From IMG/VR virus record IMGVR_UViG_3300035698_002285, positions 1-27,824 of that record: a stretch of 27,824 bases of DNA. One strand, 5' to 3'. Origin of the DNA: a virus. Position numbers and translations under genes: made by a program. A model generated the notes under the pieces. It saw nothing but the letters and a program-made list of their open reading frames with translations. It had not been told where the DNA came from and did no database searches. Within the stretch, counting starts at the first letter, position 1. Every line of letters begins with the position of its first letter. Positions 852 through 21,440 of the stretch are shown here, piece by piece.

Positions 852-887
852 AAGATAACACCTCCAATAGAAAGTATTGATTTTAGT

Positions 888-1064
888 TTATTCAAAACGA
901 TTATAAAAGTGCAAAAACCTTGTTTTAGCTTCTGGCAGGTTTTTGACGTAATTACAAGCTAGCGGGTCAACAGTATTATAACACTGGCCATAATCCCCCT
1001 TTGCTGTTTTAGCAGATAAATAAAATCCTTTGTCTGTAATCTTAGTAATAACGTGTAAAATCAT
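888..1064 (-). CDS. Unrecognised 58-residue protein, first gene of the minus-strand array
   Basis: Reading from ATG at 1064 to TAA at 888-890 gives a 58-residue protein beginning MILHVITKITDKG and ending TRFLHFYNRFE. An ATGGAGGTGTTAA leader lies just upstream and matches the other genes of the array. Only about 36 nt separate it from the next gene. It is the promoter-proximal gene of the minus-strand unit. It has two cysteines, no membrane segment and no recognised domain. Confidence 0.6.
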   Translation of the reverse strand: MILHVITKITDKGFYLSAKTAKGDYGQCYNTVDPLACNYVKNLPEAKTRFLHFYNRFE

Positions 1065-1084
1065 GATTTAACACCTCCATAAGT

Positions 1085-1100
1085 GAAGCATAATTGCTTC
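1085..1100. promoter_or_regulatory. Inverted repeat GAAGCA-TAAT-TGCTTC in the minus-strand leader
   Basis: A perfect 6-bp inverted repeat with a 4-nt loop lies just downstream of the predicted -10 element, about where the minus-strand transcript would begin, and upstream of the binding site for the gene at 1064. It could be an operator for a repressor or a 5' hairpin in the message. The sequence alone does not decide. Confidence 0.35.
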
Positions 1101-1107
1101 TGTATAT

Positions 1108-1136
1108 AGTATCGGTTATAACCATAAGATAATCAA
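1108..1136 (-). promoter_or_regulatory. Probable sigma70-type promoter for the minus-strand small genes, with a palindrome in the spacer
   Basis: On the minus strand, TTGATT (1136-1131) and GATACT (1113-1108) are separated by 17 nt, each matching four of six consensus bases. The spacer contains the perfect 10-bp palindrome GGTTATAACC (1114-1123), a common place for an operator. Together with the inverted repeat at 1085-1100 this suggests a regulated promoter. The gene-free interval 1065-1254 separates divergent genes, so a plus-strand promoter is also expected there, but I could not identify one. Confidence 0.4.
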
Positions 1137-1254
1137 CAACAAAATAAATTAATTTCACAATATATAGTGTGTTTCCGGCGATAAAACAAGGATAGTAGAA
1201 AATAAATAAAATCAACCATCAATAGAATGTAATTATTAAAGCATAGAATAGACC

Positions 1255-1707
1255 ATGAGCAGAGAGATAACAGAGAAACAGAGAGCATGGACAATTGCAA
1301 TGTACACGGTTGGGGGTGATACATTCGGCAATGGAATAGAAAGTGCAAGAACTGCGAAGTATAGCGGAAACAATAACACACTTAAACAACGAGCATATGA
1401 ATTAGTAACTAATAGTAACGTGATTAAGCTGAAAGAGCAGATACAAGCCAAAACAGCTAAGAAGATTGAATATAATGAAGACAAAGGTATCTCTCTGCTG
1501 CACGAAGCTCTCGCAATGGCTAAGAGCCAATCCAACGTAGCAGGCTACGTCTCCGCTATACGCGAGCTTAACAGTATGTGCGGTTATAACCATACTAACC
1601 TACACAACGACACTCAGCAGCCATCAGAGCTAACTGCAGACGCAAGGGCAGAGCTTAAGCGCCTTGCAAGGCAGGCTACCAACATCAAGCTCGCTAAGAA
1701 GGCTTAG
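1255..1707 (+). CDS. terS: Terminase small subunit-like protein
   Basis: This 150-residue protein resembles the Terminase_2 type of small terminase subunit, which recognises the packaging site and recruits the large subunit. Visible features are an N-terminal helical segment (about residues 8-60) with the pattern ESARTAKYSG then LKQRAYELVTNSNVIKLKEQI, which is typical of the family's DNA-binding region, followed by a helical middle (HEALAMAKSQ) and a lysine/arginine-rich tail. The length is usual for the family. The ATG at 1255 has only a weak upstream purine stretch and is the first start after a stop-rich divergent region. It is the first plus-strand gene, and the large subunit follows about 1.3 kb later. 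The match is by pattern, not by strong identity. Confidence 0.7.
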   Translation: MSREITEKQRAWTIAMYTVGGDTFGNGIESARTAKYSGNNNTLKQRAYELVTNSNVIKLKEQIQAKTAKKIEYNEDKGISLLHEALAMAKSQSNVAGYVSAIRELNSMCGYNHTNLHNDTQQPSELTADARAELKRLARQATNIKLAKKA

Positions 1708-1786
1708 CAGGCCTGCCAGTGGACAAACGCAGGTAGATGGCTATATCCGTCCGGCAGAGAGAGAAAGTAGGCTCAGTGGGCAGAGA

Positions 1787-1812
1787 GGGGGGTGGGGGAG
1801 GGGGCGAGGGGG
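1787..1812 (+). other. G-quadruplex-forming tract
   Basis: Four runs of five or more guanines lie on the plus strand (1787-1792, 1794-1798, 1800-1804, 1808-1812), separated by loops of T, A and CGA. This fits the G-quadruplex consensus with very short loops. It lies in non-coding DNA (1708-1901) just after the terminase small-subunit gene, in a local GC-rich island within AT-rich surroundings. A role in packaging-site recognition or cleavage, in transcription or in replication is possible but not shown. Confidence 0.75.
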
Positions 1813-1901
1813 CGTGTCGGATGTATATATATACCGCACCTCAATATAACCTATTTTATCCAATACAAGACAAGGAAGGTAGCTTATGAAACGAGAAGAC
1901 G

Positions 1902-2048
1902 ATGGACAACTATTACAAGCCTGACCCGATGTTGAGTGTGATTCACCCTGAGCTATATGAGTTTCAATGTCTCAGATGGCACGAAATGTATTTAGCCGAG
2001 GAGGAGTCTAACGTAAACAAAGGACTTATGTCGCCTGTTTTTGAGTAA
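1902..2048 (+). CDS. Unrecognised 48-residue protein, 3' end rewritten by an insertion
   Basis: Reads from ATG at 1902 (preceded by GAGAAG) to TAA at 2046-2048. It begins MDNYYKPDPMLSVIHPELYE and continues with an acidic WHEMYLAEEESN segment, a natural-looking composition. Near its 3' end lies the left copy of a 16-bp direct repeat (2013-2028). Joining the gene across to the right copy (2417-2432) would instead end it in TTQI and a stop just before the binding site of the next gene. I infer that the present C-terminus was created when the T5orf172 gene was inserted. Function unknown. Confidence 0.5.
   Translation: MDNYYKPDPMLSVIHPELYEFQCLRWHEMYLAEEESNVNKGLMSPVFE
2013..2028 (+). repeat. Left copy of 16-bp direct repeat flanking the T5orf172 gene
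   Basis: The sequence gtaaacaaaggactta is repeated exactly at 2417-2432, 404 bp downstream. The two copies bracket the T5orf172/GIY-YIG-like gene, as a target-site duplication or a recombination scar would. Confidence 0.8.
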
Positions 2049-2090
2049 AAACCCGCCTGAGGCTCTGGAAATACGGGAGAGTAGATTTTT

Positions 2091-2420
2091 ATGGCAAAAA
2101 AAGGAAGAATATATCTTGTCCGATGTGGCGAAACAGATTACTACAAAATTGGAATAACCACAAATTCTGTTAAAGACAGACTTACTGGGCTACAAGTTGG
2201 TTGTCCGATAGAACTCGTTATGGTTACGTTTATAGAGTGTAGCGATTATGTGGAGCAGGAAGAGTATTTGCATAGCAAATTCGACAAAGACAGGGTTCGC
2301 GGGGAATGGTTTAGTCTATCTGCTCATAAAGTAGGTTTGGTAATTAGCGAGATGGCAACGATAGAAACACGGGATATAAATATTGCCAATAGCATTGGGC
2401 TTGTGCGCCCTACGGAGTAA
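2091..2420 (+). CDS. T5orf172 / MUG113-type GIY-YIG-like nuclease
   Basis: A 109-residue protein built almost entirely of a T5orf172-type domain, a branch of the GIY-YIG nuclease fold. Visible motifs are IYLVRC then YYKIGIT (about residues 7-23), which stand for the GIY and YIG strands. They are followed by the arginine-bearing helix DRLTGLQVGCP (29-39) and the family signature E-x-x-LH-x-F then R-x-x-GEWFSL (about 58-76). The length suits a single-domain, free-standing protein. Such proteins act on DNA and are frequently mobile in phages. It lies between the terminase subunits and is bracketed by a 16-bp direct repeat. Its TAA stop lies within the right repeat copy. The ATG at 2091 follows GGGAGA at a usable distance. 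Nuclease activity is inferred. Confidence 0.8.
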   Translation: MAKKGRIYLVRCGETDYYKIGITTNSVKDRLTGLQVGCPIELVMVTFIECSDYVEQEEYLHSKFDKDRVRGEWFSLSAHKVGLVISEMATIETRDINIANSIGLVRPTE

Positions 2421-2432
2421 ACAAAGGACTTA
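2417..2432 (+). repeat. Right copy of 16-bp direct repeat flanking the T5orf172 gene
   Basis: Exact copy of the repeat at 2013-2028. It supplies the stop codon of the T5orf172 gene, so the insertion boundary and the end of the gene coincide. Confidence 0.8.
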
Positions 2433-2458
2433 CGACACAGATTTAAGGGAGAACAGAA

Positions 2459-2635
2459 ATGGAATTAAAACGATGTGATTACTGCGGTGCTATTGCCAGC
2501 GCCAAGAACAAGGACTGGGTAGTTGTTAAGGGCTATTACGGCGGTGGTACGGGCAAGGATATGTGTAACGAGTGTTACCATCCCCTTGAGCTTGCCAACG
2601 CTCGTCAGGAGGCTGTTAACGATGTACAAAGATAA
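2459..2635 (+). CDS. Small zinc-finger-like protein (58 residues)
   Basis: Reads from ATG at 2459 behind AAGGGAGAAC to TAA at 2633-2635. Two Cys-x-x-Cys pairs are visible, CDYC at residues 6-9 and CNEC at 36-39, separated by a glycine-rich loop (YYGGGTGKD). This is the arrangement of a treble-clef or zinc-ribbon type site. The last 14 nt overlap the next gene, whose AGGAGG binding site lies inside this reading frame, so the two are probably translationally coupled. Zinc binding is inferred from the cysteines. The partner and role are unknown. Confidence 0.65.
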   Translation: MELKRCDYCGAIASAKNKDWVVVKGYYGGGTGKDMCNECYHPLELANARQEAVNDVQR

Positions 2636-2870
2636 GGGCAAGCAGCGTGAGGAGATTAAGTTGGCTACTCGCAGGTACAGGTCAAAGGTATCACCAAAGG
2701 TATCACCGGAAGCGACTATTGTGATACCCAAGATTCCTCCTTGTCCTGCTGGCGAAAGCCAGAGCGTGTGGAACTTCAAACACAGAGAGATAATGAAAGA
2801 CTTACTAACGAGAATTGTGGAAGTCGGCTTGGTGCTATTTGTGGTTTGGATTCTGACAGGTTGCTCATAA
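2622..2870 (+). CDS. Unrecognised 82-residue protein with C-terminal membrane segment ending in a lipobox-like motif
   Basis: The start at 2622 is chosen because AGGAGG lies 9 nt upstream. A longer frame from 2523 is a shadow of the zinc-finger gene. The N-terminal half is strongly basic (KDKGKQREEIKLATRRYRSK), followed by a Val/Ser/Pro-rich linker containing a 12-bp tandem duplication. Residues about 63-80 form one hydrophobic segment (VEVGLVLFVVWILTGCS) that ends the protein. LTGC resembles a bacterial lipobox but sits at the C-terminus, two residues before the stop. It could be a tail-anchored inner-membrane protein or the remains of a lipoprotein such as an outer spanin. No family is recognised. 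Confidence 0.6.
   Translation: MYKDKGKQREEIKLATRRYRSKVSPKVSPEATIVIPKIPPCPAGESQSVWNFKHREIMKDLLTRIVEVGLVLFVVWILTGCS
2683..2706 (+). repeat. 12-bp perfect tandem duplication
   Basis: The unit caaaggtatcac occurs twice in direct succession and keeps the reading frame, encoding a duplicated Lys-Val-Ser-Pro in the linker of the membrane-anchored small protein. It looks like a recent slippage event. Confidence 0.85.
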
Positions 2871-2882
2871 GGGAGAACAAAC

Positions 2883-2996
2883 ATGACTAAAGGGACATGG
2901 AAAGTCTTGCGTAGGATTTTGGATTGTCTAAGCGATGTGATTCTTGCTCAGTTGATACTTGAATGTAAGGTTGTTTTGAGGGAGAGGAAGAAATGA
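2883..2996 (+). CDS. 37-residue peptide coupled to the large terminase
   Basis: Reads from ATG at 2883, behind AAGGGAGAAC, to TGA at 2994-2996, where it overlaps the terminase ATG as ATGA. The peptide is one amphipathic helix (RRILDCLSDVILAQLILECK) with basic ends. The clear binding site and the four-base overlap suggest that it is translated. It may act mainly as a coupling leader for the large terminase. No family is recognised. Confidence 0.5.
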   Translation: MTKGTWKVLRRILDCLSDVILAQLILECKVVLRERKK

Positions 2997-4642
2997 CAGA
3001 CCTCCTTGACGACCCGCTACTGAATGATAAGATGATGCAGGCCGATTCCTGTTATTGGGCGTTGGCTAACAAGATAAAACTGATGGGCAATACTACCTTT
3101 ACTCTTGACGGGTGCAGGTACATGGAACTCATTATGAGCGACGAGTCTAGGTACATTTCAGTTATGAAGGGTACTCAGGCTCGCATTACTACCGCTTTCA
3201 TGCTCCGTAGTATTCACGCACTTGTGAACGGATTATATCCACAGGGCGTGATTTATTACTTTCCGTCCAGAGATGCAGTAGAGGATTTCAGTAAGACAAG
3301 ATTTACTCCTTTGATTAACGATAATCCATGTATTCGCAAGCACTTGAAGAGTACTGACAGCGTTTTCGCCAAAAAGGTTGGTAAAGCATTTCTTACTTTG
3401 AAAGGTGCTACAGCAACTAAGAATCTCAAGGGCAGGAAGAAAGACAGTTCTGCTGTAAGGTCTACTCCTGCCGACGAGGTTATTAGGGACGAGCGAGACT
3501 TATTCGATGATACAATGGTCGAGATGACCAAAGACAGGCTATTGAACTCTGATTTCAAACGAGAGGTGGATTTAGGTTCGCCCACAATGCCCGACTTTGG
3601 TATTGCTAAGACATTCAACATTTCAGACCAGAAGAATTCAATGTCGAAATGCGAGGCGTGCGGGGGATATACTTGTCTAGTAGATGAGTTTCCTAACTGT
3701 ATGAAGTATAAGAGGAGCGATACGCATGAAGATTTTGCTCCTTATTTTGCGTGCATTAAATGCGGTGCTGTGATTCCTGTTCTAGACCAAGAGTTCGTAG
3801 CGAAATATCCTGGCAGGGAAATATCAGGTTATCATATACCCCATCTTATCACGCCTAAATGTGAAGCTAAGTTAGTAATGAACAGGTGGGAAGAGGCTCA
3901 GGCCGACGGTAGCAAGATGGGTACGTTTTACAATAGTATCCTAGGCTTACCATATATAGCGTCTGAGGACAGGCTTACCGAGCCTGACGTATATGCGTGT
4001 TGTGGTAACGATATAATGAGAACTGGTATAAGTATTTCTCAGGCTGCAATGGGTGTGGACGTAGGAAAGAGTTACCATACTGTAGTTATAGGAGAGAAGG
4101 TAGATGAGAAACGGGCGAAAATTATTTACATGGCAAGAGTTAAAGGTTTCGACGCGGTACATGACATTGCCAAGAAGTATAACGTCAAGTCAGCGGTTGT
4201 TGACATCAGACCCTATGAGGAGAGCTTTACGAAATTCCAAGCGTCAGAACCATATAGAGTCTTTGGCGCAGAGTATAAGGACAAGCAAAGAGAGTTTCTC
4301 AAGACGGACGAAAAATCTGGTGTTTACTCTCTACTCCGAAACCAAATCTTTGATAAGACGCACGCTTGGTTTAAGAGTAAACAAATTGAGATTCCTCGCA
4401 GGTGTGAAGAAGTTAACGAGTTTGCCAAGCAGGTATGTAATTGTGCGAAGGTATTAGAGGAAACCGAACAGGGCGATAGAGTTTATAGGTACATCAAATT
4501 GGGCGACGACCACTATCGTTCCGCTGTGAACTATTTGTATATGGCCTTGGGCGACCTGACCAGTTATCAGGGCATGGGCACAGTTGGTTATCAAGGTGGC
4601 AAAAAGAAGGGCGGATACGACCCGCTGGAGTGGGGCTTGTGA
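2993..4642 (+). CDS. terL: Terminase large subunit, GpA-like
   Basis: This 549-residue DNA-packaging motor subunit resembles the lambda GpA branch. The N-terminal ATPase has a P-loop-like segment KGTQARIT (residues 59-66), where related proteins have the pattern KS-x-QVG-(K/I)-(S/T), followed by GVIYYFPS (85-92) and a Walker B-like ADEVIRDERDLFDD (160-173). A zinc-binding insert follows (C220, C223, C254, C257). The C-terminal nuclease has the acidic set D356 (GVDVGKS), D404 (AVVDIRP) and D505/D506 (GDDHYRSAVNY). The start has GGGAGAGG upstream and overlaps the preceding peptide as ATGA. The P-loop lacks the usual GK(T/S), which is odd. GpA-type terminases usually cut at cos sites. Confidence 0.9.
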   Translation: MTDLLDDPLLNDKMMQADSCYWALANKIKLMGNTTFTLDGCRYMELIMSDESRYISVMKGTQARITTAFMLRSIHALVNGLYPQGVIYYFPSRDAVEDFSKTRFTPLINDNPCIRKHLKSTDSVFAKKVGKAFLTLKGATATKNLKGRKKDSSAVRSTPADEVIRDERDLFDDTMVEMTKDRLLNSDFKREVDLGSPTMPDFGIAKTFNISDQKNSMSKCEACGGYTCLVDEFPNCMKYKRSDTHEDFAPYFACIKCGAVIPVLDQEFVAKYPGREISGYHIPHLITPKCEAKLVMNRWEEAQADGSKMGTFYNSILGLPYIASEDRLTEPDVYACCGNDIMRTGISISQAAMGVDVGKSYHTVVIGEKVDEKRAKIIYMARVKGFDAVHDIAKKYNVKSAVVDIRPYEESFTKFQASEPYRVFGAEYKDKQREFLKTDEKSGVYSLLRNQIFDKTHAWFKSKQIEIPRRCEEVNEFAKQVCNCAKVLEETEQGDRVYRYIKLGDDHYRSAVNYLYMALGDLTSYQGMGTVGYQGGKKKGGYDPLEWGL

Positions 4643-9351: not shown

Positions 9352-9801
9352 ATGGCACTATTTGATGCTATGTTTGAATTTAGTGATGAACAAGCTGTGA
9401 CCGCAACTGCTGTTGCGACGAACTCTATTGATTTTCAGGCGTCAGACCTCGAAATGGGCGCTGGCGAACCTGTTTATCTTAACGTAAGAGTTGGCGAAAC
9501 CGCCTTTACTACAGGTGGAGATAATGACGGAACATTAGTCGTATCTCTTGTGTACGAAGGCACTACGCCAGTTGACACAAGTTCTACCGTACTGTACTCT
9601 ACAGTGGCGTGGGCAGAGGCAGCCCTGACAGCCGGAGCGTGGGTTTTAAGAATGGCATTGCCCGTTGACTATGATAAGGAGAGGTTTGTTGGACTCCTGT
9701 ACACCACAGCTAACGATATAACAGGTGGTACTATAAACGCTTGGCTCGACCACGGGCCACAGTCGAGTTACGACACTCAAGTAACTACGTCTAATATCTA
9801 A
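9352..9801 (+). CDS. Bbp16-like capsid decoration (cement) protein
   Basis: A 149-residue beta-rich protein directly after the capsid gene. Its opening, FSDEQAVTATAVATNSIDF (residues 10-28) followed by LEMGAGEPVYLNVRV (33-47), matches the Bbp16-type pattern of Bordetella phage and relatives, thought to stabilise or decorate the capsid. It then has a strand-rich core with LVVSLVYEGT and the closing segment around WLDHGP. A GGAG site lies just upstream of ATG at 9352. Its stop overlaps the glycosyltransferase start as TAATG. Confidence 0.75.
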   Translation: MALFDAMFEFSDEQAVTATAVATNSIDFQASDLEMGAGEPVYLNVRVGETAFTTGGDNDGTLVVSLVYEGTTPVDTSSTVLYSTVAWAEAALTAGAWVLRMALPVDYDKERFVGLLYTTANDITGGTINAWLDHGPQSSYDTQVTTSNI

Positions 9802-10415
9802 TGAATATACTTCTGGGAATACCTTTAGCACCTGACAATCTGGTTAATAGCCGGTTGTCGAGTGTAGTAGAAAAATGGGACGGCGTGGAAGTTTTCTACG
9901 CCCCCTCCCATTCTCCTGCTCTTGGCAGGGACAAAGCTGTCCAACACGCTTTATATAAGATTCCAAGACCATCTCACATCTTGTTCATTGACTCAGATAT
10001 TATTGTAAGGCCGAACACACTTAGAAGATTGTTGTCCCATAATAAGGATATTATCTGTGGCGTGTCGCCCCTTGCCATAAGAGGTGTGTTGTCTTGGAAC
10101 GTCAGTCGTAACACCGATAAGAAATCTCTCTTTCCCGTTGGAATAAACGAGTTGCCAGACAATTTGTTTAAGGCAACTAAGATAGGCTTCGGCACAGTAT
10201 TAGTAAAAACAGAGGTCTTTGATAATCTTCAATGGCCGTATTGGAAACACGAATATGTGCAGGGCAATATTCTAAGGGGTGAGGATATTTATTTCGGTGA
10301 TAAGGCTCTTGACGCAGGATATGATTTATGGGTAGACCCTAAAGTAAAATGCGAACACAACCGCACGGTTGGTTTGCTAAGTATAATAAATAATTTGAAA
10401 GGAAAGTTACAATGA
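9801..10415 (+). CDS. GT-A-fold glycosyltransferase-like protein
   Basis: A 204-residue protein of the phage-associated family 2-like glycosyltransferases. It shows the N-terminal strand MNILLGIPLA and ALGRDKAVQHAL (40-51). The metal-binding DxD motif is FIDSDIIV (62-69), followed by KIGFGTVLVKTEVF (127-140), the acid pair in RGEDIYF (159-165) and the late histidine of CEHN (184-187). These are the donor-sugar and metal-binding positions of a GT-A enzyme. There is no signal peptide or membrane anchor, so it should act in the cytoplasm. The stop overlaps the next ATG (ATGA). The substrate could be a virion protein, a lipid-linked sugar or DNA. Coupling to the next gene is suggestive only. Confidence 0.75.
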   Translation: MNILLGIPLAPDNLVNSRLSSVVEKWDGVEVFYAPSHSPALGRDKAVQHALYKIPRPSHILFIDSDIIVRPNTLRRLLSHNKDIICGVSPLAIRGVLSWNVSRNTDKKSLFPVGINELPDNLFKATKIGFGTVLVKTEVFDNLQWPYWKHEYVQGNILRGEDIYFGDKALDAGYDLWVDPKVKCEHNRTVGLLSIINNLKGKLQ

Positions 10416-12595
10416 AAAAGTTTTTAATTATAATGCTCTTCATTGTCTTTGTGGCCCAACCGTGTTTGGCAGCGTTTACTACGTCTATTGATAATAAGAA
10501 AACGTACAAGAACGCATATCGCTGGACAGGCAAACCGAAAGATTTACTTTTGGACTGGGCAACAGAGGTTGAAGACAGAATAGATGGTAGTACTGGCGTG
10601 GAGTATATATACTTCATTCCAAGTTCTGCACCTTCCGCAACAGAGGGTAATTTTTATTACAACTCTATTACACAGAACGTATCTTATCATAATGGTACAA
10701 CGTGGCAGACACTTGGTATATCGTCTAGTGGAACATTAGACGAGGCGTACAATTCTGGCTATGGTATCGACGTTGACGGAACTGCTGTAACAATGACAGT
10801 TGGCGACGGAGATAACAACGCTGGCCTGATTGTTGCCCAGAACGATAGTACAAATGACCCTGACGCAATGAATATCACAAGTGCCGCTGACGCCACAACT
10901 GCTGTTGGTTTGCAGATTGACTGTACGGCTGGCTTTGACCTTCAGGGTACAAGTGACTCGTGGAGCGTGTCTATTGCTGGTCTGTTTGACGGCGAAGGTT
11001 TGACAGGTTTGACTAACTCGCAAGGAATCTTATTTGACACTAACGCTGAGATTCAGTTTGGCGATGCAAGCGAAGATGTTGCGATGGCCTTTAGTTCAAA
11101 TACGCTAACATGGGCTACTGATACCGGAGTTGATTCAATGGCATTTGGTGTAGTTGATGACCTTGAAGGCGTTGGCACTATTGTATTTGACGCCGCTGCT
11201 TCAACTATCACTTTAACCGCTGATGCTGGTGCTGAGGATTTAACTATATCTCAGGCTGGTGCTGTCGATGCAAGCCTTATTCTTTCGTCTGCTGGAACTG
11301 GAACTGATGCACTTAGTTTAATTAGTTCTGCGGCTGATATTAAGATTAACTCCGCCGACAACATTGATATTGACGCTGCTGATAATATAGCAGTTGATAC
11401 TGCTGGTGGAACTTTTGTGCTTACTACTATTGGTGGTGATATTACTATCGACGCCTCTGACAAATCTGTAGTCATTAGAGGAACAGAAGCCGCTGCTGAT
11501 GCAGTTACTATTGTAGCTGATACTGCTGCTGGTGGTATTGATATTTCGTCACAGGCCGATGTTGATATTACAACTGCTGGTGCTGCTGGCGAGGATATTA
11601 CTATTGCCAATACTGGCGGTTCTGTCAATATCACAGCAAGTGAAGCTGACGCTGGTGCGATTCTTATTCAAGCATCTGCTGCTGGTGGAGACTTGAATCT
11701 TGACTCTGTTCTCGGTAGAATTGAAATAGAGGCAGAAGAAGATGCTGCAAATGCAGTTTATATTATCGCTGATGGCGGCACTACAAGTACAATTAAGATA
11801 CATAACGATACTGGTAGTGCTGACGACTCTGTTTACTTAGCGTCTGATGTTGGTGGTATTACCCTTAACTCCGCCGCTGGCTCAGTTGATATTGAAGCTG
11901 TAGGTGCAGGTGATGGTGATATTATCCTTAGCGCTGGTGACATTTTAACGCTAACATCAGTTGATACCAAAATCTTTGATGGTGCTACCGCTGAAACTTG
12001 GATAGTTGAGGGTACAGCCGATGACCACGAGGCTTCTGTAGTATTTACAGACCCAACCGCTGACGTTATATGGACGTTCCCAACTGCTGGTGCTGATACG
12101 TTTGCAGTAATGGCTTCCACTCTTGCTTCAAATGCGCCTGAGATTGGGAACTCTGTTTCTGGTGGAACTAATCAGTTGATTTTTGAAGGCACTGCCGACG
12201 ACCACGAAACTATCCTGACTGCTAACGACGCAACAGCAGATGCTACACTTGCATTTCCTAACGATAGTGGCGATGTAGTTTATGCCCCAGAGGGCGTAGT
12301 TGACTATGCCGCTGGTGCAGGTGCATTACCTATAACGCACGCCATAATCACCTATGCAAGTCAAGGTGGAGCAGAGGCTCTTACGTTGGCTGACGGTAAG
12401 CCTGGTCAGATATTAAGTGTTAATCACGATACTGATGGCGGTAATGGTGTAATCACTCCCGCAACAGCACTTGGTTATACCTCTATTGACCTTGCTGACG
12501 ATGGTGATATGGTTACATTTATGTTTGTAGATACTCAAGGTTGGATAATTATAGGTACTGCCGGTAACGCAGCGCCTCCAGCTGTAACACCTTAG
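10412..12595 (+). CDS. Large signal-peptide-bearing beta-repeat protein
   Basis: A 727-residue protein with a clear Sec signal peptide: KK at residues 2-3, a hydrophobic core at 4-14 and probable cleavage after Cys-Leu-Ala at 20. There is no lipobox. Residues 22-110 look like a short globular head (YKNAYRW, LLLDWATEVEDRIDG). Residues about 130-515 are Ala/Gly/Asp/Thr-rich with recurring short D-I-x-I-(D/N/T) strands (for example ADNIDIDAADNIAVDTAGG), consistent with a beta-helix or beta-solenoid. Two related blocks beginning (V/F)EGTADDHE occur at about 532-567 and 591-625. The C-terminus resembles a fibre-tip domain (FVDTQGWIIIGT). It may be an exported adhesin, an enzyme or a fibre. Export is unusual for a virion protein. 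An intrinsic terminator follows. Confidence 0.7.
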   Translation: MKKFLIIMLFIVFVAQPCLAAFTTSIDNKKTYKNAYRWTGKPKDLLLDWATEVEDRIDGSTGVEYIYFIPSSAPSATEGNFYYNSITQNVSYHNGTTWQTLGISSSGTLDEAYNSGYGIDVDGTAVTMTVGDGDNNAGLIVAQNDSTNDPDAMNITSAADATTAVGLQIDCTAGFDLQGTSDSWSVSIAGLFDGEGLTGLTNSQGILFDTNAEIQFGDASEDVAMAFSSNTLTWATDTGVDSMAFGVVDDLEGVGTIVFDAAASTITLTADAGAEDLTISQAGAVDASLILSSAGTGTDALSLISSAADIKINSADNIDIDAADNIAVDTAGGTFVLTTIGGDITIDASDKSVVIRGTEAAADAVTIVADTAAGGIDISSQADVDITTAGAAGEDITIANTGGSVNITASEADAGAILIQASAAGGDLNLDSVLGRIEIEAEEDAANAVYIIADGGTTSTIKIHNDTGSADDSVYLASDVGGITLNSAAGSVDIEAVGAGDGDIILSAGDILTLTSVDTKIFDGATAETWIVEGTADDHEASVVFTDPTADVIWTFPTAGADTFAVMASTLASNAPEIGNSVSGGTNQLIFEGTADDHETILTANDATADATLAFPNDSGDVVYAPEGVVDYAAGAGALPITHAIITYASQGGAEALTLADGKPGQILSVNHDTDGGNGVITPATALGYTSIDLADDGDMVTFMFVDTQGWIIIGTAGNAAPPAVTP

Positions 12596-14553: not shown

Positions 14554-14663
14554 TGGCAAAAGCAAAAGCAGGTACACCTAAACGAGACGGTTCCGGCAAA
14601 GGTCGCAGGGCTAATGCTGGCAGAGGTTGTGGTGGACGAAGAAAAACTGGAAGGGGTAGATAA
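14553..14663 (+). CDS. 36-residue Arg/Gly-rich basic peptide
   Basis: Reads from the GTG at 14553 (overlapping the preceding stop as TAGTG) to TAA at 14661-14663, which overlaps the ATG of the gp11-like gene as TAATG. The peptide contains PKRDGSGKGRRANAGRGCGG and ends RRKTGRGR. It has no acidic residue except one Asp and has a single Cys. The PKRDGSG opening with a GRG repeat recalls small metal- or nucleic-acid-associated phage and bacterial peptides. The exact overlaps at both ends argue for translation. It may bind DNA or RNA, or act as a virion-packaged basic peptide. Confidence 0.65.
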   Translation: MAKAKAGTPKRDGSGKGRRANAGRGCGGRRKTGRGR

Positions 14664-15472
14664 TGGCCAGTAGTGTAACAGTAGTATGCAATCTCGCACT
14701 TCAAAAAATGGGACAAGCGTTAGTAGATGACGCCGAAACTCCTGGTACTTCTGTAAATGAAATCAAATGTAATAATATATATCCGCAAATTCGTGACGAA
14801 ACCCTAATAGACGGGCCAGAGTTGGGCTGGAAATTCGCCACAATGACATATCACGGCATAGACGACCATAGTGTAGCTATCAGTTCTATTGCCGATAGTG
14901 CTACGACAGGTGAGATTACAATAACCACAAGTGCGGCACACGAATTGGTTGTTGGCGATAAGGTAGAACTTGCCGGAGATACTGGTTACGACAGTGAATA
15001 TGTTGTCAACACAGTAGGTGCAACAACTACATTTGAGGTTACTGCAACATTCGCTGCAACTGGAACAGGTACGGCTCACTGGCGGTCAGACGATTATACA
15101 TACCGCTATGCAGTACCAACGAGTAAGAAAGTGGTATCAGTTAAGGTTGGAGGGTTAGAGATTTCAGATTGGGTTCGTGAGGGTAGTTGGGTTTATACAA
15201 ACCAAGAGTCCACTGAGGTTGATATGAAAATAATCAAGGCCATTACTGATGTAACCTTATTCCCCGATTGGTTCGTGAGAATAATGGTTCTACGGCTTGC
15301 GAGAGAGTTGCATTACAGTATGACGCAGGACTTGAAAGCAATCCAACTGCTCGATGTAGAACTTGACAGAGCTACGGTAAAAGCAATAGCAATGGACGAA
15401 AGACAGAAATACCACCAAGAGAAATCAAGCTCTTGGCAAAATATAGGTAATACTCAAGACACAATAGAATAG
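14663..15472 (+). CDS. Gatekeeper / tail tubular protein A-like (gp11-like) with an inserted beta domain
   Basis: A 269-residue protein with the usual gp11-type opening, VCNLALQKMGQ (residues 8-18), then EIKCNNIYPQIRDETL and GWKFAT (55-60), and the usual closing half (YAVPTSKKVVSVKVGG, WFVRIMVLRLARELHYSMT). In T7 this protein rings the bottom of the portal and joins it to the nozzle. Between about residues 66 and 143 lies an extra beta domain (EITITTSAAHELVVGDKVEL) seen in many environmental phage tail proteins. The remaining length fits the family. It lies upstream of the nozzle gene, separated by two unknown genes. The start is at a TAATG overlap. Confidence 0.8.
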   Translation: MASSVTVVCNLALQKMGQALVDDAETPGTSVNEIKCNNIYPQIRDETLIDGPELGWKFATMTYHGIDDHSVAISSIADSATTGEITITTSAAHELVVGDKVELAGDTGYDSEYVVNTVGATTTFEVTATFAATGTGTAHWRSDDYTYRYAVPTSKKVVSVKVGGLEISDWVREGSWVYTNQESTEVDMKIIKAITDVTLFPDWFVRIMVLRLARELHYSMTQDLKAIQLLDVELDRATVKAIAMDERQKYHQEKSSSWQNIGNTQDTIE

Positions 15473-15901: not shown

Positions 15902-16449
15902 TGCCAAGCCCACTCACTACCTATACACATCGTCTGTATATAGCCAGGGGTGCTGCGACGAATGATACGCAGATTGACTTGACTACTGCAGGCGATTTCG
16001 CTAATAAGCCTACTACGACGTTAGACCTACAGACTAAAGACGTAGTGACGCCACAAGATGCGCCTGTACCAGCAGAACTCAAACCTAACGGATTGAGATT
16101 TCTATTTTGTGGTGACGGCTCAGAGAACGAAACATTCAACTGGCACTTATTAGCGTGGGGTAATGAAAATTGGCCTGCTAAGTATATCGGTACTGGTACT
16201 GGTACGTGGGGAACGCAGGGAGTAGTAGCATTTCCGCATAACGGGGTTACTACGAATATGGTCTGGGCAGACACCTTAACTGTAACGTGGTACAACTGGC
16301 CTAAGGGGATAGTTTCGACAGAAGAGACTGGCCATAATTCAGTTGCCGAGGTTTGGCTTGACGGATGCGGGTCGAGGTACTGGCGAATTGAACTAACTGA
16401 TAATACTAATGCGGCCACAATCGGCGCAGTCTTTTATGGATATTGGTAA
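15901..16449 (+). CDS. Unrecognised 182-residue beta-rich protein
   Basis: Beta-rich protein rich in Trp (FNWHLLAWGNENWPAKYIG, WADTLTVTWYNWPKG, YWRIEL) with the C-terminal segment AEVWLDGCGSRYWRIE. The order of strands suggests a jelly-roll, possibly a carbohydrate-binding or decoration protein, but this is inference from composition. It starts at a TAATG overlap with the 139-residue gene and ends at TAATG with the nozzle gene. The paired arrangement suggests that the two products work together. Confidence 0.65.
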   Translation: MPSPLTTYTHRLYIARGAATNDTQIDLTTAGDFANKPTTTLDLQTKDVVTPQDAPVPAELKPNGLRFLFCGDGSENETFNWHLLAWGNENWPAKYIGTGTGTWGTQGVVAFPHNGVTTNMVWADTLTVTWYNWPKGIVSTEETGHNSVAEVWLDGCGSRYWRIELTDNTNAATIGAVFYGYW

Positions 16450-18533
16450 TGGCTAAAACGAATAAGATTTTACAGTCTTTGAATAGTGGCGAGCTATCTC
16501 CCCTGATGGACATGCGCATCGACCAGACTAAGTATCAGATGGGCTGTCGTACAATGGAGAACTTCTACCCACTGATTTACGGCGGGGCAGAGCGCAGGCC
16601 GGGTACATACTTTATTGGAGAGGCAAAAGACAGTTCAGTTAAATGCAGGTTAATTGACTTTATATTTTCAGTTGACCAAGCATACATATTAGAATTTGGC
16701 AATCAATACATAAGAGTTTACGCTAATAACGGCAGGTTCGTAGGGAAACTCGCCGCAGATACTTCCGCTTGGAATGGTACGAGTACAACGTACTATGCAG
16801 GCGACTTAGTTATAATGTCCGATGTCATTTACAGATGTATTATCGGGCACGTATCAGACAGCGCAACAGGTGGTGACGGTACAGGCGGTACTCCTGACGC
16901 TGGCGCAAACCCTATTCAATGGGCGGTGGCATCTCTAACATCAGATTCATACCCCATTTACGAGATTCCTTCTCCCTACCTTACGGCGGATTTGTTCGGC
17001 CTCAAAACCGAGCAGTCCGCCGATGTTATGTACATCACACACCCCAATTACGAGTCGAGAAAACTGTCGAGAACAAACGCAACAACATTTTCTCTGGTAG
17101 AATTAGATTTTCGCACCGGCCCATTCCAAAACCTCAACTCTATATCAACCGCACAAATCACCCCATCGGCCACTACCGGCTCAATTACCCTAACCGCTTC
17201 AGGAACAAATAAGGATGGCTCTGATTTTGAACCGTTTGTAGATAGCACAACGGCAGGACACCAACCGTCACTGGACGGTGAAGAAACAGATACCAACATA
17301 GGAACATCTCAAACCAACAAATCTATTACTGGTACATTATTCAAAATAGTTCATTCAATGGAGGCAGGGGAAATTGATGAATCGTTCACTGCGATTGGTA
17401 CGTCTGATTCTCTCTTGGTGTATAAAGGTGTTAAATGGGATTTTGTAACTAATGGCACTTGGAGTGGCACAATAAAATTAGAGAGAGCTTATATAGAAAC
17501 TCCTACTGTATGGGAAACTATTGCTACAGTAGTTTCAGAGAATAATAATAACGCAGCAATAGACGGAGTAGAGGAAGTTGACGACGCTTATTATCGTATG
17601 AACGCTACTGCTTTTACTTCTGGTTCTTCTAACTGTCAATTTTCAGTAAGAGACACATCTCATATAGGGATAGTTGAAATAACCAATATAACTTCTTCTA
17701 AAGTTGCTACCGGAACTGTTAGGACAACTCTTGGCTCTACCGATTTAACGCATAGATGGGCAGAGGGTTATTGGTCTAACTATCGTGGCTGGCCTTATTC
17801 GGTAGCAATTTCGAGTGAGGAAAGATTAACCTTTGCCGGTTCTGAGAGTTTCCCGCTAACGGTCTGGGGTTCGGTATCAGGTGATTATACTGATATGACC
17901 GCAGGTTCGTTAGACGATGACGCACTTGTCTTTACGCTCGTAGGTTCTGGCAGACAGAATGTGATACGATGGATAGTCTCCAAAAACGCTCTAATCTTAG
18001 GCACTTACGGTGGCGAGCATTTGCTCGGTGCAAGCGACGATAAAGAAGCTATGACGCCTACAAATGTTACCGCTAAGATACAATCTACTTACGGTTCAGA
18101 CGATGTGCAAGCACTTCTCGTTGGCGATAGTATTCTCTTTATCCAGAGAGGTGGTCGTCGGTTAAGGGAAATGCACTACGAGTTTGAAAAGGACTCAATG
18201 ATAGCAGAGGACTTAACTGTCTTTGCGAACCATATTACCGAAAGCACAATAGACGAAATTGCTTACCAGAGAACACCTGACCCTATGGTATGGTGTGTTC
18301 GTGGCGATGGCCAGATGGCCGTTCTTAGTTACGAGCGAAGTCAGGATATATGGAGTTGGTGTAGATTAACTACAAGCACGAATCTTGCAGGTACTCAAAC
18401 TGAAAGCGACTTTGAAAGCGTTGCTATAATACCAAGTGGCGGAGAGGAAGATATTGTTTATACTGTCGTTAATCGTACCATAGGAGGTTCGCCTAAAAGA
18501 TATATTGAATATTTTAGCACGAGAAGCTTTTAG
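16449..18533 (+). CDS. Tail nozzle protein (tail tubular protein B-like), N-terminal part
   Basis: A 694-residue protein with the very characteristic opening LNSGELSPLMDMRIDQTKYQ (11-30) and NFYPLIYGGAERRPGT (38-53), then FSVDQAYILEFGNQYIRVY. A short chitin-binding-like insert (W-x-x-x-x-x-Y-x-x-GD-x-V and RCIIGHVS) spans about 103-163. A long beta region ends with GSPKRYIEYFSTRSF. In related phages the chain continues past this point into a C-terminal module. Here it stops at TAG, which overlaps the GTG of the next gene. The ATG at 16449 is chosen for its TAATG overlap. An upstream TTG frame is not needed. Confidence 0.85.
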   Translation: MAKTNKILQSLNSGELSPLMDMRIDQTKYQMGCRTMENFYPLIYGGAERRPGTYFIGEAKDSSVKCRLIDFIFSVDQAYILEFGNQYIRVYANNGRFVGKLAADTSAWNGTSTTYYAGDLVIMSDVIYRCIIGHVSDSATGGDGTGGTPDAGANPIQWAVASLTSDSYPIYEIPSPYLTADLFGLKTEQSADVMYITHPNYESRKLSRTNATTFSLVELDFRTGPFQNLNSISTAQITPSATTGSITLTASGTNKDGSDFEPFVDSTTAGHQPSLDGEETDTNIGTSQTNKSITGTLFKIVHSMEAGEIDESFTAIGTSDSLLVYKGVKWDFVTNGTWSGTIKLERAYIETPTVWETIATVVSENNNNAAIDGVEEVDDAYYRMNATAFTSGSSNCQFSVRDTSHIGIVEITNITSSKVATGTVRTTLGSTDLTHRWAEGYWSNYRGWPYSVAISSEERLTFAGSESFPLTVWGSVSGDYTDMTAGSLDDDALVFTLVGSGRQNVIRWIVSKNALILGTYGGEHLLGASDDKEAMTPTNVTAKIQSTYGSDDVQALLVGDSILFIQRGGRRLREMHYEFEKDSMIAEDLTVFANHITESTIDEIAYQRTPDPMVWCVRGDGQMAVLSYERSQDIWSWCRLTTSTNLAGTQTESDFESVAIIPSGGEEDIVYTVVNRTIGGSPKRYIEYFSTRSF

Positions 18534-20470
18534 TGACTGTTAAATCTAATGCACACTTCGTTGATAGCGACATACAGGGAACGTCCGGTTTAGACGACTG
18601 GACGTCAAGTACCCGTGACTATGCGCCAGAAGTTATAGTTGGTTACTATCCAGCAATACTTAATGGCGCATCAATATCAAAATATAGCAATACTGGTGCA
18701 TTAGATACGGACTGGGCAACTTCTGGAAGTTGGGAGTATCTAACAAGCCCTTTAACTTGGTCGTATCACGGTATGTCCCCTACAAGTGACAACGGGTTGG
18801 TTGTTTGTCATCACGATGTGGCGAGTTCAGAAGAAACAGATGTACGATGGTCAAAATTTGAGGGCGCAAGTGGTACGCTGTCAGCAGGAGATACTATAAC
18901 GGTTGATGGAAAAGGTACAGCAGTTATTGTGTATATCCGATACGATAGCGCAACGAAAGGACTTGTCTATTTTGACACTTTAACTGGTAGCGAATTTGCC
19001 AATAATGATACTTTTTACAATGGCGCAAACAACGCTGATATTTTTGGCAATCCAATTAAACGCCCACAGATTACAAAACTTGATTCTGATGGTGTTATTG
19101 ATACAACTTGGGGTTATAGTGGCCGAATGGTATGTAGTACCGATTCTTGTGGCGTTACAGTTGACGACAATGACAATGCTTATATTTCTATAAGTGATAT
19201 TAGTTCAGAACAGTTAATGAAAGTAAATTCTGATGGCATCGTACAGTGGTCTTTTAGCCACGCATCGGCTGACCGTACCGACCATTATTGTGCTACGCCT
19301 TTCACTTATAATGGCACGGAACTTATAGCTTGTGGAATGCGCACAGAGAGTATAGGTGGCACGTATTACGGTCTTTGTGCTGTTAATGCTTCAACTGGCG
19401 CACTACAAACGGACTGGGGTACAAACGGTTACGCATGTACGGGAAATACATCAACTCATGTTTATAGTATTAGAGTAGATTCTAATAATAAAATATACTG
19501 CCATAGAAACATATATGGTTCTGGTACAAATTTATATAGTGTGGTAAGGTTAAACTCAGATGGCTCCGTTGATACGAACTGGGGAGTTAATGGTTACGCT
19601 GGATTTGAACAGTCACCGATAAGTAATAGTAAATATAGTTGGAACAATACCATAGATTTTATAAATGGCAAAATCTATACTATTGCTTACAATGCTCCCG
19701 AAGGTACTAAAGATAGGGGTACGGTTTATTTAGAATCTTACGATGGTGCAGGAACAGCTACAAGACTACAAACCTTTTCAGGATTTGGCAATGAACCTGC
19801 AAAGTGTGTTGTTGGCGGTGGCGGGTTGGTGTTTATTGGTGGCAATTCATACGACTTAGAGGGTGACGGTGCTGCTTCGGTGTATTATTACGCCTATAAC
19901 GGTGTGTACGCAGGACAATTAACGCCTATCGCTGGCGACCCATCAGTAACACATATTATAAAAATTATCGACGAAGACGCCGATGACGCTCTATTTTACA
20001 ATGAACAGGCACGTACTACGGCCTACCCAACTGACCACGCCCACTTAAACGGGCAGACAGTACAGGTCTTAGGTGACGGCTCATATCTCGGCACAGACGT
20101 AGTAACAGGCGGAGATATAGACCTTGACGACAATACTACCACTAATCACGTAGGATTAGCTTACACAAGCACCATAAAACCAATGAAGATTGACGGTGAG
20201 GCCACCGTAAAGAGAATTGGTAAGATTATACCTAATTTCCACGAAAGCGTAGGAGGGGACTACGGTGACGCTACAGACAATTTGTACTCAATCGTAATCA
20301 GAGATAGTAATGACCCAATGGACATAGAGGGCGAACTTAATACTGGACACGTAGAGTTGCCTTTTGATGGCAAGTATCAGAGGGATGCAGATATAATAAT
20401 AACCCAAGACGAACCGCTACCAATGAAAATTTTAGGTATTGGCGTAGACCTTTCGCAGGAAAGTATTTAA
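18533..20470 (+). CDS. Nozzle C-terminal module split by a delta-60 repeat (beta-propeller-like) insertion
   Basis: A 645-residue protein starting at GTG in TAGTG. Residues 4-26 (KSNAHFVDSDIQGTSGLDDW) and about 486-645 (AHLNGQTVQVLGDG, HVGLAYTSTIKPM, DADIIITQDEPLPM) are the two ends of the nozzle C-terminal module that normally follows directly on the N-terminal part. Between them lie about 450 residues with delta-60-like repeats, seen as L-x-S-(D/N)-(G)-x-x-D-T-x-WG-x-x-G at 48-66, 179-199, 281-301 and 337-357 plus a weaker one at 228-240. Such repeats usually form beta-propellers. The insert could bind a receptor or decorate the tail. Separate translation from the N-terminal part is inferred from the frame. 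Confidence 0.75.
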   Translation: MTVKSNAHFVDSDIQGTSGLDDWTSSTRDYAPEVIVGYYPAILNGASISKYSNTGALDTDWATSGSWEYLTSPLTWSYHGMSPTSDNGLVVCHHDVASSEETDVRWSKFEGASGTLSAGDTITVDGKGTAVIVYIRYDSATKGLVYFDTLTGSEFANNDTFYNGANNADIFGNPIKRPQITKLDSDGVIDTTWGYSGRMVCSTDSCGVTVDDNDNAYISISDISSEQLMKVNSDGIVQWSFSHASADRTDHYCATPFTYNGTELIACGMRTESIGGTYYGLCAVNASTGALQTDWGTNGYACTGNTSTHVYSIRVDSNNKIYCHRNIYGSGTNLYSVVRLNSDGSVDTNWGVNGYAGFEQSPISNSKYSWNNTIDFINGKIYTIAYNAPEGTKDRGTVYLESYDGAGTATRLQTFSGFGNEPAKCVVGGGGLVFIGGNSYDLEGDGAASVYYYAYNGVYAGQLTPIAGDPSVTHIIKIIDEDADDALFYNEQARTTAYPTDHAHLNGQTVQVLGDGSYLGTDVVTGGDIDLDDNTTTNHVGLAYTSTIKPMKIDGEATVKRIGKIIPNFHESVGGDYGDATDNLYSIVIRDSNDPMDIEGELNTGHVELPFDGKYQRDADIIITQDEPLPMKILGIGVDLSQESI

Positions 20471-21009
20471 TGGCAACTTTAGCAAATGCACATTTTGTTG
20501 ATTCAGATATAACAGAGGGTACGTCAGGCTCGGACGATTGGAGTTCTGGCTCTGGCTCTACCCTGCAAGAAAGGACTACCGCCTTTCCAACGGACAGGGC
20601 GCACCTTAACGGCCAGACTGCCGATATACTCGATGATGGCGTGGTTGCAACCGACCAAGTTGTTTCAGGTGGTGCAGTTTCAGGTATATCTGGCACATAC
20701 CATATAGGGTTGAACTTCGTTTCTACTGTAAAGCCAAGCAAACTTGACATTGAGGGTATGGGTATAATACTCACCAAGAAGATTACTAAGGCTATTGTGA
20801 GTTTCTATAACACGCTAAAGGGTAAGGTAGGCGTGGATTCAACTGCTATGGAAACCGTTGATTTTGGCACTACATTATTCTCAGGAGTAAAGGAAGTGCC
20901 TATGGCAGACGGTTATGACCGTGACGCTGATATAATAGTCCAGCAGGACGAGCCATTACCAATGCTGTGTAGGGGATTAGTATTAGATACAGGGGTGCAT
21001 AATCCGTGA
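20470..21009 (+). CDS. Second, uninterrupted copy of the nozzle C-terminal module
   Basis: A 179-residue protein that aligns with both ends of the preceding protein: residues 5-26 (ANAHFVDSDITEGTSGSDDW) with its N-terminus, and 36-179 (RTTAFPTDRAHLNGQT, HIGLNFVSTVKPSK, DRDADIIVQQDEPLPM) with its C-terminal 160 residues, without the repeat insertion. This is the canonical form of the C-terminal module of podovirus nozzle proteins. It starts at a TAATG overlap and ends as GTGA with the next gene. Sequence divergence between copies shows that the duplication, or acquisition, is not recent. Whether it replaces or accompanies the repeat-bearing form in virions is unknown. Confidence 0.8.
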   Translation: MATLANAHFVDSDITEGTSGSDDWSSGSGSTLQERTTAFPTDRAHLNGQTADILDDGVVATDQVVSGGAVSGISGTYHIGLNFVSTVKPSKLDIEGMGIILTKKITKAIVSFYNTLKGKVGVDSTAMETVDFGTTLFSGVKEVPMADGYDRDADIIVQQDEPLPMLCRGLVLDTGVHNP

Positions 21010-21440
21010 TAGAGCATATACCATACAATCCTGAACACGCTAAGAATATAATCGAGAACGGCGCAGTTGGAATGTGCTTTGTAGACCAAGGGCAGATAGA
21101 TACTCTTGCCGAAATGAAAATGAACGGCATTGCATATACTTGTATGCAGAACGACAGGCCGATAGCTTGTGGCGGGTTTGAGTATATGTGGACTGGTGTT
21201 GCTCAGGCTTGGTTTCTATGTGTAAAAGACATTAACCCTTTGGTTATAAAAGAGAATAAACGTAAGTTTCTTGAGATTGTCAAAGATGCAAACCTACACA
21301 GAGTACAAGCTCCATTAAGGTCAGACTTTCCCGTAAGCGTTAGATTTGCAGAATATATAGGTTTCACGAAAGAGTCAGTTATGAAAAATTATCACCCTGA
21401 TGGGACAGACGCTCTTATGTACGTATTAGGAGAAATATAA
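21006..21440 (+). CDS. GNAT-like protein in the T7 gp13 position
   Basis: A 144-residue protein starting at GTG in GTGA. The order of elements is GNAT-like: the strand around IAYTCMQNDRPIACGGFEYM (117-180 nt into the gene), then AWFLCVKDINPLV, the helix ENKRKFLEIVKDANLHRV and the last strand region ADFP-like SVRFAEYIGFTKE. A clear acetyl-CoA motif is missing. T7 gp13 and the DUF2833 family have this fold and lie, as here, between nozzle and internal virion genes. It is probably needed for assembly of the internal core rather than acting as an acetyltransferase. This is the second GNAT-like gene in the window. Confidence 0.7.
   Translation: MIEHIPYNPEHAKNIIENGAVGMCFVDQGQIDTLAEMKMNGIAYTCMQNDRPIACGGFEYMWTGVAQAWFLCVKDINPLVIKENKRKFLEIVKDANLHRVQAPLRSDFPVSVRFAEYIGFTKESVMKNYHPDGTDALMYVLGEI

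Follow-up and report, generated by a model that had tools for sequence, protein, structure and literature searches.

The tail nozzle encoded in the window, a 27,824-base contig of an uncultured podovirus from IMG/VR analyzed over its whole length, is divided among three genes: an N-terminal chain (N) and two homologous C-terminal modules (M1 and M2), of which only M1 is interrupted by a large insert. We consider it probable, at roughly 60%, that N and M2 form a two-chain nozzle, that M1 is an exchangeable adhesin anchored via a duplicated nozzle C module, and that the junction between the N and C parts is a site of host recognition. The three genes together tile the PHROG-376 nozzle profile. 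In profile searches, residues 1 to 694 of N (P0001), residues 484 to 641 of M1, and residues 6 to 174 of M2 matched phrog_376 with E values of 4.5e-148, 8e-26, and 8e-21, respectively. N extends to position 535 of the 712-position profile, and the missing C-terminal part is present twice, on separate genes (Table 1). The single continuous chain typical of PHROG-376 is therefore broken in the window, at the overlapping stop/start junctions TAGTG (N/M1) and TAATG (M1/M2). The three genes are co-directional, and the overlap between N and M1 likely couples their translation. The sequence-only reading had proposed such a divided nozzle, and its coordinates, stops, and starts for the three genes proved exact.

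Table 1. Features of the nozzle region, in window coordinates.
Feature	Coordinates	Strand	Evidence
Adaptor (tail tubular A-like), upstream partner of the nozzle	14663..15472	+	phrog_394, E 1.8e-19
Nozzle N, 694 aa, stop TAG, ends at the propeller-to-platform junction	16449..18533	+	phrog_376 1-535/712
N/M1 stop/start overlap (TAGTG)	18531..18535	+	Sequence
M1, nozzle C module with insert, GTG start, 645 aa	18533..20470	+	phrog_376 545-708; orthologue in L002
M1 C module, first part (..NAHFVDSDI..DDW), 5' of the insert	18533..18610	+	Alignment of four module heads
M1 insert, ~457 aa, delta-60/DUF5122 repeats	18611..19984	+	TIGR02608; PF17164; self-repeats
M1 C-module core	20027..20467	+	C-core HMM, 4e-59; single-chain-only HMM, 136 bits; modelled strands
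M2, plain nozzle C module, ATG start, 179 aa	20470..21009	+	phrog_376 540-707; L002 orthologue
Acetyltransferase-like gene 3' of the nozzle	21006..21440	+	phrog_4177, E 4.9e-26

The gene order of the window (terminase, portal-like connector, protease-like protein, major capsid protein, adaptor, nozzle region, acetyltransferase, and internal virion proteins) matches that of the Pelagibacter podoviruses, epsilon15, and BPP-1. The neighbors of the nozzle region belong to phrog_394, phrog_4177, and phrog_418, which corresponds to the adaptor, acetyltransferase, and internal protein placement of a PHROG-376 nozzle. The adaptor precedes the nozzle also in HTVC010P, epsilon15, BPP-1, and Carin1, and an annotated acetyltransferase follows the nozzle in HTVC028P, HTVC035P, and Skadi-1. 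Elsewhere in the structural cluster, positions 10412 to 12595 encode a repeat-rich 727-aa protein with a Sec-signal-like N terminus. It had no PHROG match and a weak, sub-threshold Pfam match and is conserved at positions 857 to 3040 of the nearest relative of the window, contig IMGVR_UViG_3300033143_002343 (L002). A glycosyltransferase-like gene (9801 to 10415; phrog_1574, weak GT2 match) lies among the head genes and adjoins a phrog_427 protein.

N is homologous by sequence to the solved tail nozzle 8ck1_A of the Carin1 type (E 6.7e-69). M1 and M2 also match 8ck1_A, as does a C-module profile, which aligns with 8ck1 residues 672 to 825 (E 1.4e-42). The cores of M1 and M2 are 42% identical, and an alignment of four module heads showed that the M1 head preceding the insert is like that of M2 (NAHFVDSDI..SG.DDW). 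The proposal of two homologous modules is borne out by these matches, and both cores are nozzle modules by sequence rather than unrelated folds. AlphaFold modelled the strands of the M1 core with a pLDDT of mostly 80 to 92. The M2 head (residues 1 to 39) was unordered when M2 was modelled alone, as would be expected if M2 needs N. In a Foldseek search, the isolated M2 model had no significant PDB match, with T7-like nozzles only at ranks 12 and 13 (E about 1.7). N itself contains an extra stretch of about 65 residues (P0001 residues ~107 to 163; window 16767 to 16937) that matches CBM_5_12 below threshold; single-chain relatives have LamG domains as large as ~550 residues at this position.

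At the site of the break, the junction in cultured single-chain nozzles spans about 30 residues, and epsilon15, Carin1, Skadi-1, and MW202898 have an extra 65 to 90 residues exactly there. In T7 gp12, the fiber dock lies between the propeller end and the C-terminal platform and links the two, and strands from the 45 N-terminal residues form part of the platform barrel (PMC6702177). By topology, the break may correspond to the position of the fiber dock and the C module to the platform; this equivalence is put forward by analogy, given that the isolated M2 model had no significant fold match. If the T7 plan holds, a C module would be incomplete by itself and should require an N chain as its partner. 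The nozzle would then be built from two chains, N as the propeller part and a separate C module resembling the T7 gp12 C-terminal platform, with M2 as the regular module completing it. The break would lie where other nozzles have a small docking domain and would serve as the host recognition site in this clade.

Known nozzles resemble this arrangement in part. T7 gp12 and P-SCSP1u gp23, which had no significant sequence match to the nozzle proteins of the window, are hexameric nozzles with a dock between the propeller end and the platform, where fibers attach (PMC6702177, PMC10575957). However, each is one chain with an unduplicated platform, and the fiber is a separate, non-covalent trimer. 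The nozzle of Cobetia phage Carin1 (gp36; 8ck1_A by sequence) is clearly homologous to N and to the C modules and has an insert of about 80 residues at the same junction, but it is a single 830-aa chain with one C module. The tail tubular protein B of the Pelagibacter podoviruses HTVC010P, HTVC028P, and Skadi is likewise a PHROG-376 nozzle in the order adaptor, nozzle, acetyltransferase, and internal protein; unlike in the window, it is encoded by one gene with one C module and lacks a large insert at the junction.

The M1 insert occupies about residues 27 to 486, after which the nozzle core resumes, and M2 is intact, in agreement with the earlier suggestion that about 450 residues of delta-60-like repeats interrupt only one module. 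Family searches show that the insert contains delta-60 repeats: it matched TIGR02608 with an E value of 6.8e-15 in three stretches, summing to 54.7 bits against a family cutoff of 76.5 bits. The match to PF17164 (DUF5122 beta-propeller; E 1.2e-5) reached 25.9 bits, just below the cutoff of 27. At least five self-similar repeats are present in the insert (at residues 44, 176, 223, 278, and 333), and the best repeat pair scored 56, compared to a 95% shuffle limit of 39. The insert is likely a beta-propeller, a label that comes from these sequence families because the AlphaFold model of the insert is of low confidence (pLDDT mostly below 50). Foldseek matches of the low-confidence M1 model were weak, and those at the top were to propeller folds, namely, GH43 and sialidase catalytic domains. 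Searches found no viral relatives of the insert and, by sequence, no match to it in the PDB. Its domain type and its variability suggest that the M1 insert would act as a receptor-binding adhesin.

This variability is evident from L002, in which a search of related metagenomic contigs recovered the same N, M1, and M2 order (M1 orthologue at L002 8621 to 10228); the M1/M2 form is known from these two examples. Between the window and L002, N is 78% identical, the M1 core 67%, and M2 85%, with dN values of 0.19, 0.24, and 0.11, respectively, and synonymous change near saturation. These values indicate that all three are under purifying selection, M2 most strongly, and M1 changes roughly twice as fast as M2. 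The L002 M1 insert is a domain of about 350 residues that bears a GLUG motif (PF07581) and is unrelated to the delta-60 insert of the window. One site of one module thus holds two unrelated repeat domains, giving M1 the character of a variable surface-binding-type domain on a conserved tail anchor. As judged from this comparison, the insert has been swapped as a unit, with both copies of the module remaining conserved, which is the strongest single hint of a role in host recognition. In the window and L002, M1 would thus fill the break as a duplicated C module into which an adhesin domain, either a delta-60 propeller or a GLUG repeat, is inserted, and the nozzle module of M1 itself would anchor the adhesin on the tail. 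Of the six nozzle positions, some would be taken by M1 in place of M2, or else M1 would dock beside them.

The place of M1 relative to the ring depends on how the two modules are related. An HMM built from single-chain nozzles only scored the M1 core at 136 bits and the M2 core at 101 bits, and this single-chain nozzle character of both favors M1 in the ring. M1 and M2 could, as the sequence-only reading had mainly suggested, be interchangeable subunits of one hexamer, each completing the N platform, with the ratio of plain to decorated modules set by coupled translation; the shared head strand and the coupling of the genes agree with such a mixed ring. However, in the C-core tree the M1 proteins of the window and L002 form one pair and the M2 proteins another (both 100/99, within a 13-row clade at 99/99), and the duplication therefore predates the split of the two phages. 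The extent of core divergence between these two old orthologous lines, together with the approximately twofold faster change of M1, favors separate roles, and we regard the mixed ring as rather unlikely. A nozzle made of M2 throughout, with M1 next to it as a tail-anchored adhesin, agrees with the data just as well as a mixed ring does.

Overlapping stop/start junctions can mimic frameshifts, but the chance that the layout reflects an assembly error, a frameshift, or a decaying gene is negligible. It is reproduced in the independent contig L002 at saturated synonymous divergence, the N/M1 junction of L002 holds about 500 bp and another gene, and there are four other contigs with a split nozzle, two of them of 37 and 48 kb. 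An assembly error at the junction was rejected on the occurrence of the split in six contigs. A programmed frameshift from N into M1 was also rejected, since the -1 frame is not open 5' of 18533 and the 500-bp stretch at this position in L002 is unrelated.

The sequence-only reading had also raised a receptor range switch, in which one C module or the other is expressed or recombined. The link to host recognition is supported by the insert exchange and by the genes found in the gap of four relatives described below, but the switch in the DNA sense is not. Tandem homologous modules of which only one is decorated would suit a switch, but there are no inverted repeats flanking M1 and M2 and no near-identical M1-M2 repeats in the window, and site-specific inversion was rejected on this basis. 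Of the window genes scanned, none was identified as a recombinase or a reverse transcriptase. Neither repeats nor, in that scan, an enzyme pointed to a recombination-switched tail protein or a diversity-generating retroelement (DGR). The modules are moreover co-directional and translationally coupled, in an order kept in L002, which makes a switch very improbable.

We collected further relatives by a major capsid search (29 loci) and a nozzle core search (26 loci). Four of these (L042, L051, L081, and L082) also have split nozzles; each has a single C module, separated from the N half by other genes. The break in L042 contains a gene for a 537-aa pectate-lyase-type spike (PF12708, E 8e-14), and the breaks in L051, L081, and L082 contain genes for short fibers with gp53-like tips (PF21882). 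All four nested genes encode an N-terminal anchor ending in GTH (DGTH, or NGTH in L082); of the 17 loci scanned, which include the window and L002, no others have this motif. As in the window, the nozzle is split near the same junction with a recognition gene in the break; in contrast, the fiber or spike is separate and GTH anchored, and the break lies about 20 profile positions further, at 553 to 556 versus 535 to 540 in the window and L002. The different cut positions (535/540 versus 555/556) indicate that the two layouts may have arisen separately. In L079, a single-chain member, a gp53-like fiber gene lies just 3' of the nozzle, and in several further single-chain members the nozzle chain itself contains lectin-like LamG domains. 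A 1,500-aa single-chain nozzle (L075:697-5199) has LamG domains at two sites, one of them within the C module. In three cases, the nozzle N and M2 genes of these contigs apparently start at ATC (L002:6001), ATA (L002:10225), and ATT (L042:4799), as judged from conserved N termini and the lack of an in-frame upstream ATG, GTG, or TTG. Two of the three overlap the preceding stop and one follows AGGAG, and rare near-cognate starts thus appear to be used at coupled tail genes.

In these four relatives, a free fiber or spike gene takes the place of M1 at the same locus. M1 could by the same token lie outside the hexamer, as a separate tail adhesin docking on the adaptor or the nozzle rim in place of the fiber gene of the relatives. 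The equivalent gene position, the absence of the DGTH anchor from the window and L002, and the faster evolution of M1 are consistent with this alternative. However, the platform core of M1 is complete, which exceeds what a simple anchor would be expected to require, and to our knowledge there is no precedent for a nozzle module acting as a fiber anchor. We consider a position outside the hexamer plausible, with the odds somewhat against it. The contigs are incomplete, and a conventional fiber gene could be located elsewhere, which counts against our preferred reading of N and M2 as the nozzle and M1 as its anchored adhesin.

That the nozzle is one chain in related phages, as had been assumed, held for all 13 annotated records in which gene continuity was checked and for other members of the clade, but not for five other uncultured relatives, in which it is split. 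C-module searches of 50,697 GenBank phage records located the module at one place per record, with no duplicated C module seen, and a scan of genome contigs with the N alignment gave no confirmed match. One 10-row clade (100/99) of the N-core tree contains both split and unsplit members, intermixed. The hypothesis that all six splits form one clade of single origin was rejected (approximately unbiased [AU] test, p 0.0002), with at least three changes needed, indicating repeated splitting or re-fusion.

An HNH endonuclease gene (L002:8081-8539, minus strand; phrog_2340, E 4.7e-15) is located in the N/M1 gap of L002, where it overlaps the end of the N gene with its 3' end. Phage genes split beside homing endonucleases have been reported, for example in T4-related phages (PMC2988022). 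The L002 gap resembles these cases; unlike in them, no such gene is present there in the window or the other split relatives, where the gap holds recognition genes. The L002 endonuclease may have driven the split or the exchange of cassettes. More elaborately, a heteromeric nozzle of plain and adhesin C modules might form a receptor-binding, DNA-gating ring, its splitting and exchange driven by a homing endonuclease at the N/M junction of which L002 kept a copy; this combination is speculative and, in our view, quite unlikely.

The kinds of components involved, namely, the PHROG-376 nozzle, delta-60 and GLUG repeats, and fiber tips, are already known, and a search of a literature library found no description of a split nozzle or of this arrangement. 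The arrangement bears on how receptor binding triggers nozzle opening in podoviruses. With a recognition domain in a nozzle module, or encoded within a broken nozzle gene, sensing and gating may be mechanically joined. Natural two-chain nozzles would be of use here, as the platform could be added or omitted in vitro. The arrangement would also provide a route for phages to swap host recognition domains with the channel kept intact, and the tail nozzle itself appears to be a place where host recognition is swapped.
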